From assembly GCA_024998565.1 (NCBI GenBank), contig JACOEM010000002.1:186001-250000 (forward strand): a DNA stretch of 64,000 nucleotides. Direction: 5' to 3'. Made by a program: the position numbers and the translations under genes. Within the stretch, counting starts at the first letter, position 1; each line of letters starts with the position of its first letter. Below the pieces are notes generated by a model. That model was not told the origin of the DNA. It saw only the letters and a list, made by a program, of their open reading frames with translations, and did not search any database. This document shows positions 6,812 through 51,419 of this stretch, piece by piece. The DNA comes from Nitrospira sp. Its GTDB lineage: Bacteria; Nitrospirota; Nitrospiria; Nitrospirales; Nitrospiraceae.

Positions 6812-8233
6812 CTAGAAATTCGTTTCCATGCTCGACGGGGTCTTATTCAGCACGGTTGCCGCGGCGCGGGAGAGGGCCGCGTCTTGATCGTGGTCGAGGG
6901 CGTAGATGCGGAATTGCACGAGGCGGGTGGGGAGCAGATCCAAAAACTCTTCCAGCGGTTCAGTTGAGACACCTTTCGTGCCGGGATCGAAGACGAGCAG
7001 GGGGATGCCGCGCGTATCCTTGGGATCCGGGCGCGGATCGAGCGGGGCCATGTCGACGCGAAACGGCAATGTCTGCAATTTTGCCGGCAACGCCTTCTGA
7101 ATCTGCTGCTGGAATTGCTGGTGGCTGGGGAAATCCATGCCTCGCTCGATGCCCTTCTCCTTGAGCACCGTGCTGTAGGCCATTTTCCACTTCACGTCGC
7201 GCCCCAGGATATGCGCCCACTCCTGATGTAAACGACGCAGGCTGCTTTGGCCGGCTTTCTTCCATCGTCTGACGTCCTCCAACAATGACCAGTCGGTCAA
7301 GGTCAGATATTCATCCATGTGCTTGGCCGGGTTGGACGGGAACAACAGTTTCATCGTGTCCCCGAAAATGTCGCGCAGATGAATGTCGATGGCGCGGGTC
7401 GTGCGGTGATAATACACGTTCGAGTACAGATACATTCTGGTGTTCAAAAACATCTGCAGGGCCGGCAGCCCCGTCTTATGAATCGTGAAGCCCTTGTCGG
7501 TGACGATGGTGTAGTGAATCAAGCGGGTCAGGTCCACCGGCCCCACCGCGACGCCGCACATGTAGGCGTCGCGCAGCACGTAATCGAGATTGTCGGCTGT
7601 GTAGCTGCCTGAAATGACCGGCTGGAGCATATTGATCCAGCGCGGAATGCGGGAGTTATCTTTGCCTTTCTCCTTCAGGATCACATGCGCAATGTGATCC
7701 GGATTCAACTCTTCTCCGCGATCGAACGGGCCCGACGGACTACGGCGGATTTTTTTGATGAGGGGGCCCAGGTGCTCGCGCACAATGATCTGGCCGAGCT
7801 TTTCATGCGTGAGACCGAAACCATGCAAAAAGTTGTCGTCGAAGAAATGGCAGAACGGACCATGTCCGATGTCATGCACCAGCGCCGTAATGCGGAGGAA
7901 TTCCTCGACGAAGGCCGCCGAGGGAACGTCGGGGACCGCCTTCTTCAAGAAGGGATAGAGATGGCGCGCAAAGCGGCCTGCCACATGCATCGTCCCGAGT
8001 GAATGCACGAATCGCGTATGTTCCGCCGAGGGGTAGACCCAGCGCGCGCTTTGGAGCTGGTAAATGTAGCGCAGTCGCTGCACCCATGGAGAATCGATCA
8101 GATCTTTTTCCGTGCGTTCCGAGGGATCCGGCGTCGCGTACGGTACCGTGAACGACACATATTCGTGAATCGGATCGGCAATGAGAGCTGATCCGTCGTA
8201 GGGTGCGGGGGGATGTGCAGTTGGTAGCTTCAT
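6812..8233 (-). CDS. HD-domain phosphohydrolase (COG1078-like)
   Basis: This 473-residue cytosolic protein resembles the dNTPase/YdhJ branch of HD-domain hydrolases. Metal-binding residues are visible: His72 and His77 in EHTRFVHSLG, the His120-Asp121 pair in LVHDIGHGPFCH, and a later Asp in the SYTADNLDY segment near 215. Family members hydrolyse nucleotides or dNTPs, but the substrate here is unknown. The start lies 21 bases after the DUF2062 stop, so it is probably the last gene of the galU-lon-thiL-DUF2062-HD unit. The protein is longer than a minimal HD protein, with a C-terminal alpha/beta region of about 150 residues that I cannot assign. Confidence 0.85.
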   Translation of the reverse strand: MKLPTAHPPAPYDGSALIADPIHEYVSFTVPYATPDPSERTEKDLIDSPWVQRLRYIYQLQSARWVYPSAEHTRFVHSLGTMHVAGRFARHLYPFLKKAVPDVPSAAFVEEFLRITALVHDIGHGPFCHFFDDNFLHGFGLTHEKLGQIIVREHLGPLIKKIRRSPSGPFDRGEELNPDHIAHVILKEKGKDNSRIPRWINMLQPVISGSYTADNLDYVLRDAYMCGVAVGPVDLTRLIHYTIVTDKGFTIHKTGLPALQMFLNTRMYLYSNVYYHRTTRAIDIHLRDIFGDTMKLLFPSNPAKHMDEYLTLTDWSLLEDVRRWKKAGQSSLRRLHQEWAHILGRDVKWKMAYSTVLKEKGIERGMDFPSHQQFQQQIQKALPAKLQTLPFRVDMAPLDPRPDPKDTRGIPLLVFDPGTKGVSTEPLEEFLDLLPTRLVQFRIYALDHDQDAALSRAAATVLNKTPSSMETNF

Positions 8234-40847: not shown

Positions 40848-40972
40848 GTCAGTGACCCTCGATGGGCGAGCCGGATCGGCGGCAACACGGATGGTGCTCG
40901 ACAGGTTGCAGTTCCTGTGTTGTCATGGGTCTCAGACCGGTTCTTGCCCGATGTCGAGGGGATGCACACGAT

Positions 40973-42175
40973 ATGGCGGAAGAGACGTGCGATGTTTTAA
41001 TCGCCGGGGCCGGAGTGATCGGCGTGGCCATCGCGAGGGAGCTCAGGCGTCGGTATGGCGTCAAGGTGGTCGTGCTGGAGAAGGAATCCACGGCCGGCCG
41101 GCATGCGAGCGGTCGCAACAGCGGGGTGCTGCACGCGGGCGTGTATTACAAGGCGGGGACACTCAAGGCCCGGTTGTGTGTGGAGGGGAACCGGCGGTTG
41201 CGGGCCTATTGTCGGCAGCAGGCCATTCCGCTCAACGAGCATGGCAAGGTGATTGTGGCGCGGACGGAAGCGGAGTTGCCGGCCCTGCGTGAATTGTACG
41301 CACGATCCCAGGCCAATGGAGTTCGTGCGAGCCTGCTCGATCAACAGGCGCTCAAAGAGGTGGAACCTTGCGCGAAGACCATACAGCAGGCCCTGTATGT
41401 GCACGATACCGCGGTGGTCAACCCTCGGCTGGTCATGGCCGCCATGGTGGCGGATGCCGAGCGCGAGGGCGTAGCGTTTCGTTTCGGCTGCGCCTGGCAA
41501 GGGCGGGACGGCGATGGGGTAGCGCTCACCGATCGAGGCCGTGTGACCTACGGACATTTCGTGAACTGCGGCGGGCTCTTTGCCGACCGAATTGCGCATG
41601 CCCACGAAGTCGGTCTGCACTTCAAAATCTTACCGTTTCGCGGACAGTTCTATCAGCTGCGTCCCGGGTCCGCAATGCAGGTCCGTGGCAACATCTATCC
41701 GGTCCCGGACCTGCGGAACCCTTTCCTGGGCGTGCACTTTACGCGACGGCCTGAAGGCGATGTGACGATCGGACCTTCGGCCCTCCCGCTGCTGGGTCGT
41801 GAGCAGTATCGGGGCCTGGCCGGGGCCACGCTCGGCGGGACTGTCACGATGCTGGCCTATTTGATGCGACTCTTCGGTCGCAACCGTGACCATTTTCGCT
41901 CGATTGCCTGGACCGAGATGATCAAGCTGACGCGCACGGGGTTTTTTCGTGAGGCGGAAGATCTCGGACGAGGGTTTGAGAAAGCCGATTTGCTGCCGGG
42001 GCAAGCGCCCGGCATTCGGGCGCAGTTGGTCGATACGAGAACGGCGGAACTGGTCAGCGATTTTGTGATTGAGCCGGGGGCGCGCTCCACGCATGTGTTG
42101 AATGCCGTCTCGCCCGCATTTACCTCGTCACTGCCGTTTGCCGAGCACGTCGTCGACACGATGAGGCTCGCCTAG
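40973..42175 (+). CDS. FAD-dependent oxidoreductase, L-2-hydroxyglutarate oxidase (LhgO)-like
   Basis: This 400-residue flavoprotein of the DAO superfamily has the dinucleotide-binding VLIAGAGVIGVAIARELRRR at the N-terminus and the LhgO signature RNSGVLHAGVYYKAGTLKA around 45-65. Later segments NCGGLFADRIAHA and GVHFTRRPEGDVTIGPSA are also family-typical. LhgO oxidises L-2-hydroxyglutarate to 2-oxoglutarate at the membrane, feeding electrons to quinone. I choose the ATG directly before the flavin fold; in-frame ATGs at 40862 and 40925 add unconserved residues. Its place within a glycan locus is odd, and a sugar-acid substrate cannot be excluded. Confidence 0.82.
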   Translation: MAEETCDVLIAGAGVIGVAIARELRRRYGVKVVVLEKESTAGRHASGRNSGVLHAGVYYKAGTLKARLCVEGNRRLRAYCRQQAIPLNEHGKVIVARTEAELPALRELYARSQANGVRASLLDQQALKEVEPCAKTIQQALYVHDTAVVNPRLVMAAMVADAEREGVAFRFGCAWQGRDGDGVALTDRGRVTYGHFVNCGGLFADRIAHAHEVGLHFKILPFRGQFYQLRPGSAMQVRGNIYPVPDLRNPFLGVHFTRRPEGDVTIGPSALPLLGREQYRGLAGATLGGTVTMLAYLMRLFGRNRDHFRSIAWTEMIKLTRTGFFREAEDLGRGFEKADLLPGQAPGIRAQLVDTRTAELVSDFVIEPGARSTHVLNAVSPAFTSSLPFAEHVVDTMRLA

Positions 42176-42348
42176 CCCGGACTCTTCATGAATGCCTGCT
42201 CAGGCGTCCGATCCTCGCGCCCGGTGAGGCCTTTCTCGTTCGGCTTCCTCCATGGACTGCGCGTGCACCTGCGTCGGCCTCACGTGCGAGAAGCCTCGGC
42301 GGGGTTCCATCTCGAACGCCTCGCGACGGCATTCATGAAGAGTCCGGG
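42176..42348. repeat. 173-bp MITE-like palindromic element with exact 21-bp terminal inverted repeats
   Basis: Positions 42176-42196 are the exact reverse complement of 42328-42348 (21 of 21). The inner arms stay partly complementary for about 45 further bases on each side (blocks such as AGGCGT-CGA, CCCG--GAGGC and TTCTCG match in inverted order), so the whole element could fold into one long hairpin. It begins one base after the LhgO-like stop codon (42173-42175). No transposase, and no clear target-site duplication, was seen. The rest of the gap, to 42531, holds no convincing gene or promoter; a 79-codon frame at 42188-42427 lies across the palindrome and is not believed. Confidence 0.75.
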
Positions 42349-42531
42349 TTGGCGTTTCCCCGGCGGTATGAGCGAATTTTCTGGTCTGAACCCGTGGCGA
42401 GACGTTAAGATTCAAGTCGATGGATGATCGAGGCAGACGGTATGCGAAAGCATCTATGCCGGGTGCCGACCGCGTGATATAAGTTGACTTGTCCGTGCGC
42501 TCAAGCCGTCTTCTTGCCTTGGGGGGTGATC

Positions 42532-43266
42532 ATGAAGGGTGTCGTACTTGCCGGAGGGCTCGGCTCGCGATTGCTGCCGCTCACGAAGGTGACGAACAAA
42601 CATCTCCTGCCTGTCTATGACAAGCCGATGATTTATTATCCGATCCGGACGTTGGTCAACGCGGGCATTACGGAAGTGATGTTGGTGACGGGCGGGAACA
42701 GCGCCGGGGATTTCCTGAAGTTGTTGGGGAACGGGCGCGACTTCGGCCTCAAGCATCTCAGCTATACGTATCAGCAGGGGGAAGGCGGTATCGCCGATGC
42801 GCTACGGTTGGCGGAGCATTTTGCCGACGAAGGCCCGATCTGCGTGGTGCTGGGCGACAATTTGATCCAGGGCAATATTGCCAAGGCGGCTGAGGCGTTT
42901 CGTGCGCAAAGGAAGGGTGCGAAGATCCTCCTCAAGGAAGTGAAAGATCCGCAACGGTTCGGCGTGCCGTATCTCGAAGGGGACCGGGTGCTGAGCATCG
43001 AAGAAAAACCGGCTCATCCCCGCTCATCTTATGCGGTGACCGGGATCTACTTTTACGATGCGCGCGTGTTCGAGATCACCCGGACGTTGAAGCCTTCCGG
43101 CCGTGGTGAACTCGAAATTACGGACGTCAACAATGCGTATATCGCCTCCGGTGAATTGACCTGGAACGTCCTGGACGGCTGGTGGACGGATGCCGGCACG
43201 ATCGAATCGTTGTTGGCGGCCAATCAACTCGTCGCGCAGACCGGGGCGAACAGGATGGAGTTCTAA
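42532..43266 (+). CDS. rmlA: Glucose-1-phosphate thymidylyltransferase (short form)
   Basis: This 244-residue enzyme makes dTDP-glucose from dTTP and glucose-1-phosphate. Signature GGLGSRLLPLTKVTNKHLLPV is at the N-terminus, with YYPI, GDNLIQGN, KEVKDPQRFGV and EEKPAHPRSSYAVTG. It is the short (~240-residue) variant of the RmlA/RffH family. I take the ATG at 42532 (GGGGGT ribosome site) because the 16 codons upstream are unconserved. Its stop directly abuts the rmlB start. Confidence 0.93.
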   Translation: MKGVVLAGGLGSRLLPLTKVTNKHLLPVYDKPMIYYPIRTLVNAGITEVMLVTGGNSAGDFLKLLGNGRDFGLKHLSYTYQQGEGGIADALRLAEHFADEGPICVVLGDNLIQGNIAKAAEAFRAQRKGAKILLKEVKDPQRFGVPYLEGDRVLSIEEKPAHPRSSYAVTGIYFYDARVFEITRTLKPSGRGELEITDVNNAYIASGELTWNVLDGWWTDAGTIESLLAANQLVAQTGANRMEF

Positions 43267-49111: not shown

Positions 49112-51010
49112 ATGTGTGGTGTAGTCGGAGCGTTGGTCCTCTCCCCCGGTTCATTCCGTATTTCAGAACCCTATTTGATGCGGATGAGGGACAGTCTGGC
49201 CCATCGGGGTCCCGACGGCGCCGGACTGTGGATCGACTCGCACGGACGGATCGGTCTGGGGCATCGCCGGCTCTCGATCATCGACTTGAGCGAGGCGGCC
49301 CGTCAGCCGATGGCGAATGAAGATGAAACCCTCTGGGTGGCGTTCAACGGGGAGATTTACAACCATGTAGAGATCCGGCGTGAATTGGAGGCGCTGGGGG
49401 GGCATCGCTGGCGGACGGACCATTCGGATACCGAAGTGATTCTGCATGCGTTCGAGACGTGGGGCATCGACTGCGTAGACAAATTCCGGGGCATGTTTGC
49501 GATCGCGCTCTGGGATGTGCGGCGGCAGGAATTGTGGTTGATTCGCGACCGTATCGGCGTGAAGCCGCTGTATTACAGCCTGCACCACGGCCGGCTGGTC
49601 TTCGCCTCCGAGATCAAGGCTTTGCTGCAGGATCCGGAGCAGCCGCGGGCGCTGCACGAGGAATCGCTCTTTCACTATCTGTCATTTCTCACGACGCCGG
49701 CTCCGCAAACCCTGTTCGACGGCATTAAGAAACTTCCCGGCGGGACCTGGCTTCGCGTGCGTGCCGATGGGACGATGGAAGAACGTCGGTATTGGGATGT
49801 GTGGGATCACACGTCCCCCCTGCTGAGGGAGACGGATGGGGCCATTGCCGCTCGGGTTCTGGAGAAATTGCGGGAGTCGGTTGCGCTTCGCAAGGTGAGT
49901 GATGTGCCGGTCGGCGTGTTTCTATCCGGGGGCGTCGATTCCAGCACCAATGCGGCCCTGTTCTCGCAAGGAGACACGCAACGCGTCAGGACATTTACGA
50001 TCGGTTATGACGGTGATTATCCGAGCTATCGCAATGAACTGAGTCACGCCCGGTTCATGGCGGAGCAGGTCGGTGCGGACCATCACGAACGGTTGCTGTC
50101 CCTCGATGATCTCATTGCGTTCTTGCCGCGCATGGTCGCACTGCAGGATGAGCCGATTGCCGATCCCGTCTGTGTCCCGGTTTTTTATGTGTCTGAACTG
50201 GCCCGCCGGCATGGCGTGATCGTCTGTCAGGTCGGGGAGGGCGCCGATGAGCTATTCTGGGGCTATCCCTCCTGGAAAACATCCAAGATGCTCGAGGAAT
50301 GGAACCATTGGCCGGTGCCGGCGGTGCTCAAACGTCTCGGCCTTCACGGATTGCAATGGTGCGGGTATGGTGAGAGCATTCACTACGAACGGCTGCGACG
50401 CGGGATCCTCCATCAACCCGTGTTCTGGGGCGGCGCCGAAGCGTTTCCGGAGGCCTTGAAGCAACGTCTGCTCTCGCCGCGCTTGCAGCGACGATTTCGA
50501 CACCTGACGTCCTGGGAAGCCATCCGGCCGATCCATGAACGGTTCCGCGCCAAGGCCTGGGAGCAGGGCCCGCTGCAATGGATGAGCTATCTCGATCTCA
50601 ATTTCAGACTACCCGAGTTATTGCTGATGCGCGTCGACAAGATGAGTATGGGGGCGAGTCTGGAAGCGCGGGTGCCGTTTCTCGATCATGAGTTCGTGGA
50701 ATTGGCCATGAGTGTTCCCGAGGCGGTCAAGACCAGAGGGGGCGTCGTCAAGACGCTGCTCAAACAGGCGGTGCGCGGGGTGATTCCGGACGCGATCATC
50801 GATCGGCCGAAGCAGGGGTTTGGCGTGCCGGTGCAGGAATGGATGCAGGGCCGCCTGGGTACGTTGATGCAGGACACACTCGCCGATTTTTGCGACCGCA
50901 CCGATATCCTGGACAAGGCCGCGGTGCTGGATCTGGTTTGCCGGCAGCGCGATCCTCGCAGCTGGTATCTCTTTAATCTGGCGCTGTGGTGGAAGGCGTA
51001 TCTTGCCTAA
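49112..51010 (+). CDS. asnB: Asparagine synthase (glutamine-hydrolysing)-like amidotransferase
   Basis: This 632-residue class II amidotransferase has Cys2 as the glutaminase nucleophile (MCGVVGAL), followed by HRGPDGAG and the FNGEIYNH segment; the synthetase half has the PP-loop LSGGVDSS near 270 and the GEGADELFWGY motif near 380. AsnB homologues in polysaccharide loci often amidate uronic or nonulosonic acid carboxyls, and the nearby nonulosonate genes fit such a role; ordinary asparagine synthesis is the alternative. The start is fixed by the obligatory Cys2. It is followed by a repeat-bearing gap and the heparinase-like gene. Confidence 0.88.
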   Translation: MCGVVGALVLSPGSFRISEPYLMRMRDSLAHRGPDGAGLWIDSHGRIGLGHRRLSIIDLSEAARQPMANEDETLWVAFNGEIYNHVEIRRELEALGGHRWRTDHSDTEVILHAFETWGIDCVDKFRGMFAIALWDVRRQELWLIRDRIGVKPLYYSLHHGRLVFASEIKALLQDPEQPRALHEESLFHYLSFLTTPAPQTLFDGIKKLPGGTWLRVRADGTMEERRYWDVWDHTSPLLRETDGAIAARVLEKLRESVALRKVSDVPVGVFLSGGVDSSTNAALFSQGDTQRVRTFTIGYDGDYPSYRNELSHARFMAEQVGADHHERLLSLDDLIAFLPRMVALQDEPIADPVCVPVFYVSELARRHGVIVCQVGEGADELFWGYPSWKTSKMLEEWNHWPVPAVLKRLGLHGLQWCGYGESIHYERLRRGILHQPVFWGGAEAFPEALKQRLLSPRLQRRFRHLTSWEAIRPIHERFRAKAWEQGPLQWMSYLDLNFRLPELLLMRVDKMSMGASLEARVPFLDHEFVELAMSVPEAVKTRGGVVKTLLKQAVRGVIPDAIIDRPKQGFGVPVQEWMQGRLGTLMQDTLADFCDRTDILDKAAVLDLVCRQRDPRSWYLFNLALWWKAYLA

Positions 51011-51419
51011 TGCGCTCAAATTAGCAGGATGCGGAAAAAGTCCGCCAGCGGCGTTCTCGCAAGACACCGCCGCCTCACGTCTCGGCGGCGTTCACAAACG
51101 TGACGCGCGTTATTCCGCGCGTCGTGAACCTCAGAGGCTCACCGTACGGCCACGGGACAAGAGCCTGTCTTGGCAAGCTCGGGGTGGGCGGGTATGAGTG
51201 TGCGATTCGCCTCTTCGCTTGCCGCGGCCTTGCCGGACGGCCTTTTTGCGCATCCTGCGGGTTATTGTTCTGCCTCCACGGCGCATGAGTTGATCGTAGC
51301 CTATGGCGCAACCATCGAGTGTGTCCGCAGCTTGCCAGAAGTCGGGTGGCGTACCAGCCAGTCGGGTTCCTTCCGCCGTCTCCTCCTCCCTGCCGAGAGC
51401 ATCGTTTGGAGTGACTCCC
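51011..51419. other. 409-base intergenic region holding a palindromic repeat
   Basis: The region 51024-51258 is the repeat described separately. The remaining 160 bases up to the chosen start of the heparinase-like gene are part of the same open frame upstream (from 51303) but show no conserved features. No promoter was recognised. Confidence 0.5.
51024..51258. repeat. 235-bp palindromic repeat element with imperfect 23-bp inverted ends and an internal hairpin
   Basis: Positions 51024-51046 match the reverse complement of 51236-51258 at 20 of 23 bases; both ends read GCAGGATGCG-AAAAAG-CCG from outside in. Inside, GTTCAC (51090-51095) pairs with GTGAAC (51124-51129), and GACGCGCG (51102-51109) pairs with CGCGCGTC (51116-51123) around a six-base loop, a very stable hairpin. 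No transposase is encoded. From memory, similar elements with GAAAAAGTCC ends are abundant between genes in Nitrospira; the truncated copy at 35342 has a related end. Confidence 0.7.

Follow-up and report, generated by a model that had tools for sequence, protein, structure and literature searches.

A Palindromic Element Behind a Stop Codon in Nitrospira: a Probable IS1380-Type MITE with a Hairpin Core Apparently Shared Across Phyla

The 173-bp palindrome in the 64,000-nucleotide stretch of Nitrospira DNA analyzed here (the window; Table 1) represents an old insertion of a small mobile element dependent on the transposase of another element. It is very probably an IS1380-type MITE, the partner transposon having been lost from its own genome. 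On the basis of covariance-model matches, its core is homologous to the interiors of elements in several other phyla, and three further element families of the same genome, each with ends of another type, have a homologous core. The explanation as a whole, a non-autonomous MITE moved by IS1380 that contains a hairpin core as a re-used module, is in our view likely.

Structure and Position of the Palindrome

The earlier note had described a 173-bp palindrome with perfect 21-bp inverted ends, located directly after a stop codon and before rmlA. These features were confirmed: the terminal arms are complementary at all 21 nt (100%), the CTAG on the left contains the TAG of the upstream frame, and an rmlA-like gene follows. 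Near-complete self-complementarity also holds as claimed, with the qualification that it is interrupted by recurrent internal loops, which prove to be conserved. Folded as RNA, the 173 nt reach −96.1 kcal/mol, compared with −65.9 ± 4.6 kcal/mol in 200 dinucleotide shuffles (z = −6.6), none of which folded equally well. The end sequence, allowing up to 3 mismatches, matches twice within the window (chance mean 0.01), and the element includes no ORF of 90 or more codons.

Table 1. Coordinates of the palindrome, its flanks and neighboring genes, and a related hairpin in the window.
Feature	Position	Strand	Remarks
Whole element, family A	42176..42348	+	173 bp; the conserved motifs lie on the minus strand
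Left terminal inverted repeat, 21 bp	42176..42196	+	Matched genome-wide by the end-sequence search
Right terminal inverted repeat, 21 bp	42328..42348	-	Perfect complement of the left repeat
Hairpin interior	42192..42332	-	Model R1 (from non-Nitrospira elements with the ends removed): 40.1 bits, E 4.5e-9
Upstream gene, FAD-dependent oxidoreductase (PF01266)	40862..42175	+	The element is inserted at its stop codon
Downstream gene, sugar nucleotidyltransferase, rmlA-like (PF00483)	42532..43266	+	Starts 183 bp past the element
Left target-duplication copy, CTAG	42172..42175	.	Contains the TAG stop of the upstream gene
Right flank, TTGG	42349..42352	.	Probably a decayed second CTAG, judging from sister copies and empty sites
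Family-B copy	51027..51255	-	Model R3: 66.4 bits, E 1.4e-16; about 100 nt of extra stem-loop sequence inserted

Copies, Insertion Sites, and Target Preference

A BLAST search of the 4.1-Mb genome of origin returned 32 matches to the element: 27 covering most of its length (72–100% identity, window copy included), three fragments, and its own two arms. The genome therefore holds 26 further copies or large remnants. Allowing up to 3 mismatches, the 21-bp end occurs at 43 places, and a reversed control pattern at none. Among 21 aligned copies from this genome, pairwise identity has a median of 87% and reaches 97% in the closest pair; the window copy shares at most 88% identity with any other. The element is present in 33 of the 61 genomes searched (its own and 60 relatives). 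Besides its own genome, these comprise 26 of 28 congeneric genomes, 2 of 8 from elsewhere in the family, and 4 of 24 from elsewhere in the order; the copy numbers per genome are lower bounds. A search of an annotated plasmid collection with the family-A element gave no match.

For the flank analysis, 158 loci with family members were reduced to 130 distinct elements and these to 96 independent sites. The 4-bp flanks were identical at 53 of the 96 sites, with CTAG on both sides at 44 and YTAR on both sides at 61. The window copy has CTAG on the left and TTGG on the right, so its duplication is not intact; we infer that TTGG is a decayed duplication. Among 13 orthologues of the site before rmlA, including that of the genome of origin, five are filled (the genome of origin, G000, and G019, G023, G008, and G006) and eight are empty (G015, G020, G026, G024, G012, G004, G003, and G021). 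The element has its full length at this site only in G000; the other four lack part of the 3' arm. It is short, includes no coding gene, has inverted repeats, dispersed copies, and insertion polymorphism, and belongs to a family with target duplication, all of which are characters of a MITE. The non-autonomous transposon suggested in the earlier note is thus supported by the genome-wide copies, the 4-bp duplications, the empty orthologous sites, and an insertion sequence (IS) with matching ends, described below. Further copies, whose absence the earlier note had named as a refutation, turned up both in this genome and in relatives.

The target also accounts for the position behind the stop codon. 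Of 26 copies in the genome of origin, 16 have a flanking duplication that includes the in-frame stop codon of an ORF 110 codons or longer; in the larger family-A set, an in-frame ORF stop lies in the duplication at 43 of the 96 sites (limit of 100 codons). CTAG is rare in the window (11 per 64 kb), and 6 of these 11, the insertion site among them, are ORF stops. Because the element prefers CTAG, which is rare and often part of a stop codon, it comes to lie behind stops, and because the target site is duplicated, the upstream gene keeps its stop.

Several side observations concern the surroundings and remnants of these elements. The sequence from the element to rmlA (42349–42531) resembles that of the empty-site genomes G015 and G020, not that of the closest relative, G019; given this likeness up to rmlA, a recombination end may lie near the element. 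The 2.8-Mb draft genome G077, which contains locus L172, has 267 matches to the 17-bp end, many of them within 250 bases of a contig end, which suggests that such palindromes interrupt assembly. At L106, L109, L124, L201, and L220, palindromes of about 34 bp consist of two fused ends (CTAGCCCGGAYTATTCATGAAN...CCGGGCTAG) with no interior. A lone end at L052 has no transposase behind it.

The IS1380 Partner

The ends together with CTAG extend far beyond Nitrospira; at least 120 stretches contain them, and the stretches listed are a sample of the species that have them. Record titles among those listed include Planctomycetota, Myxococcota, Gammaproteobacteria, Zetaproteobacteria, Eisenbacteria, Krumholzibacteriia, Armatimonadota, Acidobacteriota, and others. 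The 138 ends in the listed stretches comprised 60 unique elements with a partner end within 420 bp, 33 ends truncated at a locus boundary, and 28 without a partner. The right flank of the 60 two-ended elements was CTAG in 37 and CTAA in 9, the left CTAG being fixed by the search pattern.

Matches to the IS1380 transposase family (PF13701) were found in 5 of the 12 genomes reached through 14 of the listed loci. A transposase with matching terminal repeats, for which the earlier note had advised a search, was found in another phylum: L226 contains a complete IS1380-family element of 1655 bp, arranged as CTAG, end, 465-codon frame, end, CTAG, with one mismatch per end. PF13701 matched in 8 of 41 genomes, and the genome of origin had no match. 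Within the same genus, G015 and G020 contain decayed IS1380 fragments with CTAG and similar ends; a complete IS with family-A ends was not found in Nitrospira, only fragments. The IS1380-type transposases of three relatives (L091–L093) are associated with different ends.

Acting in trans, an IS1380-family DDE transposase would have recognized the terminal sequences (CCCGGAYTATTCATGAA) and inserted the element at the CTAG that includes the upstream gene's stop codon. The window copy is probably immobile now, because its genome lacks an IS1380 transposase and its right duplication has decayed.

A Conserved Hairpin Interior

The interior forms a long hairpin whose loops bear fixed motifs, CGTMGCGAG opposite CGCAGYAG and CCGCAG opposite CGAGAACG, and an apex of the form AGGCGTAC-loop-GTACGTYGAGG. 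Eleven elements from outside Nitrospira, trimmed by 17 bp at each end, were aligned and used to build the covariance model R1. CGTMGCGAG, AGGCGTAC/GTACGTYGAG, and CGCAGYAG are fixed in this alignment, where the fixed letters lie mostly at the loops and the apex and the arms vary. Double changes were seen in 30 of 41 pairs, and 84.4% of cells were paired versus 65.2% in shuffles and 35–41% when slid, although such counts overstate covariation because each element is itself palindromic. Pairing of this kind would not prove selection by itself; the conserved mismatched loops are the stronger argument.

The 45 sources searched with R1 included 26 Nitrospira family-A loci, and the model matched every one of them (best E 5.5e-19). 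A sequence-only model, R2, reached a best E of 2.4e-14 and scored the window copy at 22.3 bits (E 2.5e-5). R1 gave no match at the empty-site loci L244, L246, and L247, nor at palindromes with the same ends and another interior (L116, L127, L129, and L193); at L121 its match (E 0.6) lay away from the element. Because R1 skips these same-end palindromes, the transposon ends and the core are separable. Searches of Rfam 15 with the window region, 16 cross-phylum loci, and 11 loci of the genome of origin gave no relevant match, and a known Rfam RNA was rejected on this ground. RNAalifold returned a poor, partial structure on the Nitrospira alignment A2.

We also compared G-T with A-C mismatches within the stems. 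Family A has 227 G-T and 138 A-C cells (37 versus 13 columns, p = 0.0009), which favors folding of the strand that is antisense to the neighboring gene; for family B and the cross-phylum set, the column counts did not reach significance.

Related Families with Other Ends

In the genome of origin, R1 gave 73 matches at E ≤ 0.01, among them family A and three other families. One of these, family B, is an abundant hairpin repeat of about 120 nt with unrelated ends, in whose outer stem the letters vary yet pair; double changes were present in 27 of 37 pairs among 28 aligned copies. Family C ends in CTAGGAGYCTGTCCGA and occurs once each in L389, L391, and L394 and twice in L392. Family D, with ends CCCGCRTTATTCATGA, was found in L393 and L397 and as a single end in L394, and is flanked by CTAG on both sides in L397.

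A model built from the 28 family-B copies (R3) matched family C down to E 2.8e-15 and cross-phylum family-A elements down to 2e-10. Its matches to Nitrospira family A are weak (best E 0.005), and for this reason the link between A and B within Nitrospira rests on R1. At E ≤ 0.001, R3 matched in 60 of the 61 genomes, with up to at least 59 matches per genome. Judging from these matches, elements with different ends appear to have re-used the core as a module.

The family-B hairpin in the window stands 16 nt behind the stop of an asparagine synthase gene (49112–51010). Elsewhere, family-B copies form clusters of one orientation at L378 (G000:C3:276500-286000), L377, and L376, with 5 in 8 kb, 3 in 2.1 kb, and 2 in 0.3 kb. 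A likeness to integron attC sites was considered in view of these one-orientation clusters behind stops; attC sites are characterized by the core sites RYYYAAC/GTTRRRY and accompanied by an integron integrase.

Annotated plasmid and phage collections gave no match to a family-B query. The apex pattern occurred in 10 viral-contig stretches, of which only L418 and L419 had real-looking elements. These family-B-like hairpins, in viral or tailed-phage-like contigs, lie at 752–869 in L418 (E 2.1e-7) and at 7842–7960 in L419 (E 1.1e-9); by eye, the L418 ORFs resemble phage packaging and structural genes.

Alternative Explanations and a Possible Role of the Core

That the palindrome arose by chance or as an assembly artefact can practically be dismissed, given the copies in its own genome and in relatives, the end matches set against zero in the control, and the occupation of the same site in five genomes. 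The hairpin might instead serve mRNA 3' ends as an RNA element, through stability, processing, or termination, and be kept behind stops for that reason, an account that we consider unlikely. Its strong RNA fold would suit such a role, as would the placement of family B: of 40 loci in 22 genomes, 22 have an ORF stop no more than 10 nt away on the gene-sense side and 2 on the other side, with the limit that several of the 40 are orthologous sites, so that not all 22 are independent events. In this placement, the gene-antisense strand carries the conserved motifs of family B. Against an mRNA role, the position of family A follows from its CTAG target, and the mismatch test favors folding of the gene-antisense strand. 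The orientation bias of family A is also weak: a ratio of 26:8 relative to the stop-adjacent gene in the first 65 elements shrank to 31:16 once 80 loci had been added and orthologous sites merged, and for near genes it is reversed (24:41). As for the RNA-level signal raised in the earlier note, a classical intrinsic terminator is unlikely, since the long stem is followed by TTGGCGTTTCC instead of a T run; the sole plus-strand terminator-like match (42213–42229) falls inside one arm, and the region has 2 such matches compared with a shuffle mean of 0.6. Another RNA role retains some room, the interior being conserved as a folded structure, despite the lack of an Rfam family. The placement and mismatch results cannot be turned into one consistent mRNA role, and the folded form may be DNA or RNA.

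A more serious competitor holds that this is an ordinary IS1380 MITE with a functionless interior, in which template switching keeps the arms complementary and the shared core reflects descent and exchange of ends. We place it close to, though short of, an even chance. The copies, duplications, and empty sites agree with it, and the double changes in family B often go from Watson-Crick to Watson-Crick pairs with few one-sided intermediates, as arm-to-arm correction predicts. However, the mismatched internal loops, which correction would erase, are the parts best conserved across phyla and families; moreover, the same core lies between different ends, and the core model skips same-end palindromes with another inside. 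These points suggest that the hairpin may have a function of its own, and selection acting on the core is a real possibility, if somewhat less than an even one. More specifically, the core could be an independent, structure-selected module, spread over several phyla, placed inside unrelated ends, and occurring also as the one-orientation repeat of about 120 nt behind stops, whose folded DNA or RNA strand offers internal-loop docking sites for a putative host or transposition protein. We advance this tentatively, as clearly short of an even chance.

Were the core such a selected module, it might fold on itself and aid the movement or persistence of the elements, its folded strand might be read by a host or transposition factor, and it might have been recombined between different transposon ends. 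Palindromic repeats dismissed as transposon debris would then hold a common, testable structure across phyla. Selection would also explain the same inside in mini-transposons with different ends, and the fixed loops between free arms would present a concrete target for finding the factor that recognizes them.

Comparison with Known Systems

Both IS-derived MITEs and palindromic repeats lying downstream of genes are well documented, as described in PMC2229807 and PMC3733652. Within the open-licence PubMed Central text searched, no recognized description of the element or its core was found; a structured core common to several phyla and to different transposon ends was not found in that text or in Rfam.

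A close likeness is to the IS1380-family insertion sequences (PF13701), with which the element shares the ends (CCCGGATTATTCATRAA) and CTAG flanks of L226. It differs from them in being about 173 bp long without a transposase, whereas the IS has 1655 bp and a 465-codon frame, and its interior is unrelated to the IS ends.

REPs with GTAG/CGTC tags, according to PMC3733652, are likewise palindromic, high in copy number, mostly downstream of genes, and present in several phyla. They are described there as 20–40 bp long with stems of 5–13 bp, whereas the hairpins here measure about 120–200 nt and have several fixed internal loops. Assignment to the REPs was rejected, the element being 173 bp and the related core repeat about 120 nt instead of a 20–40 bp unit.

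MITEs such as Correia/NEMIS and RUP, according to PMC2229807, resemble the element in their length of 100–200 bp, inverted ends, target duplication, long stem-loop, and movement in trans; RUP is linked to IS630 and has TA as its target. The ends differ from those found here, where the target is CTAG. In comparison with these MITEs, the interior structure of the present element is conserved across phyla and common to families with different ends.
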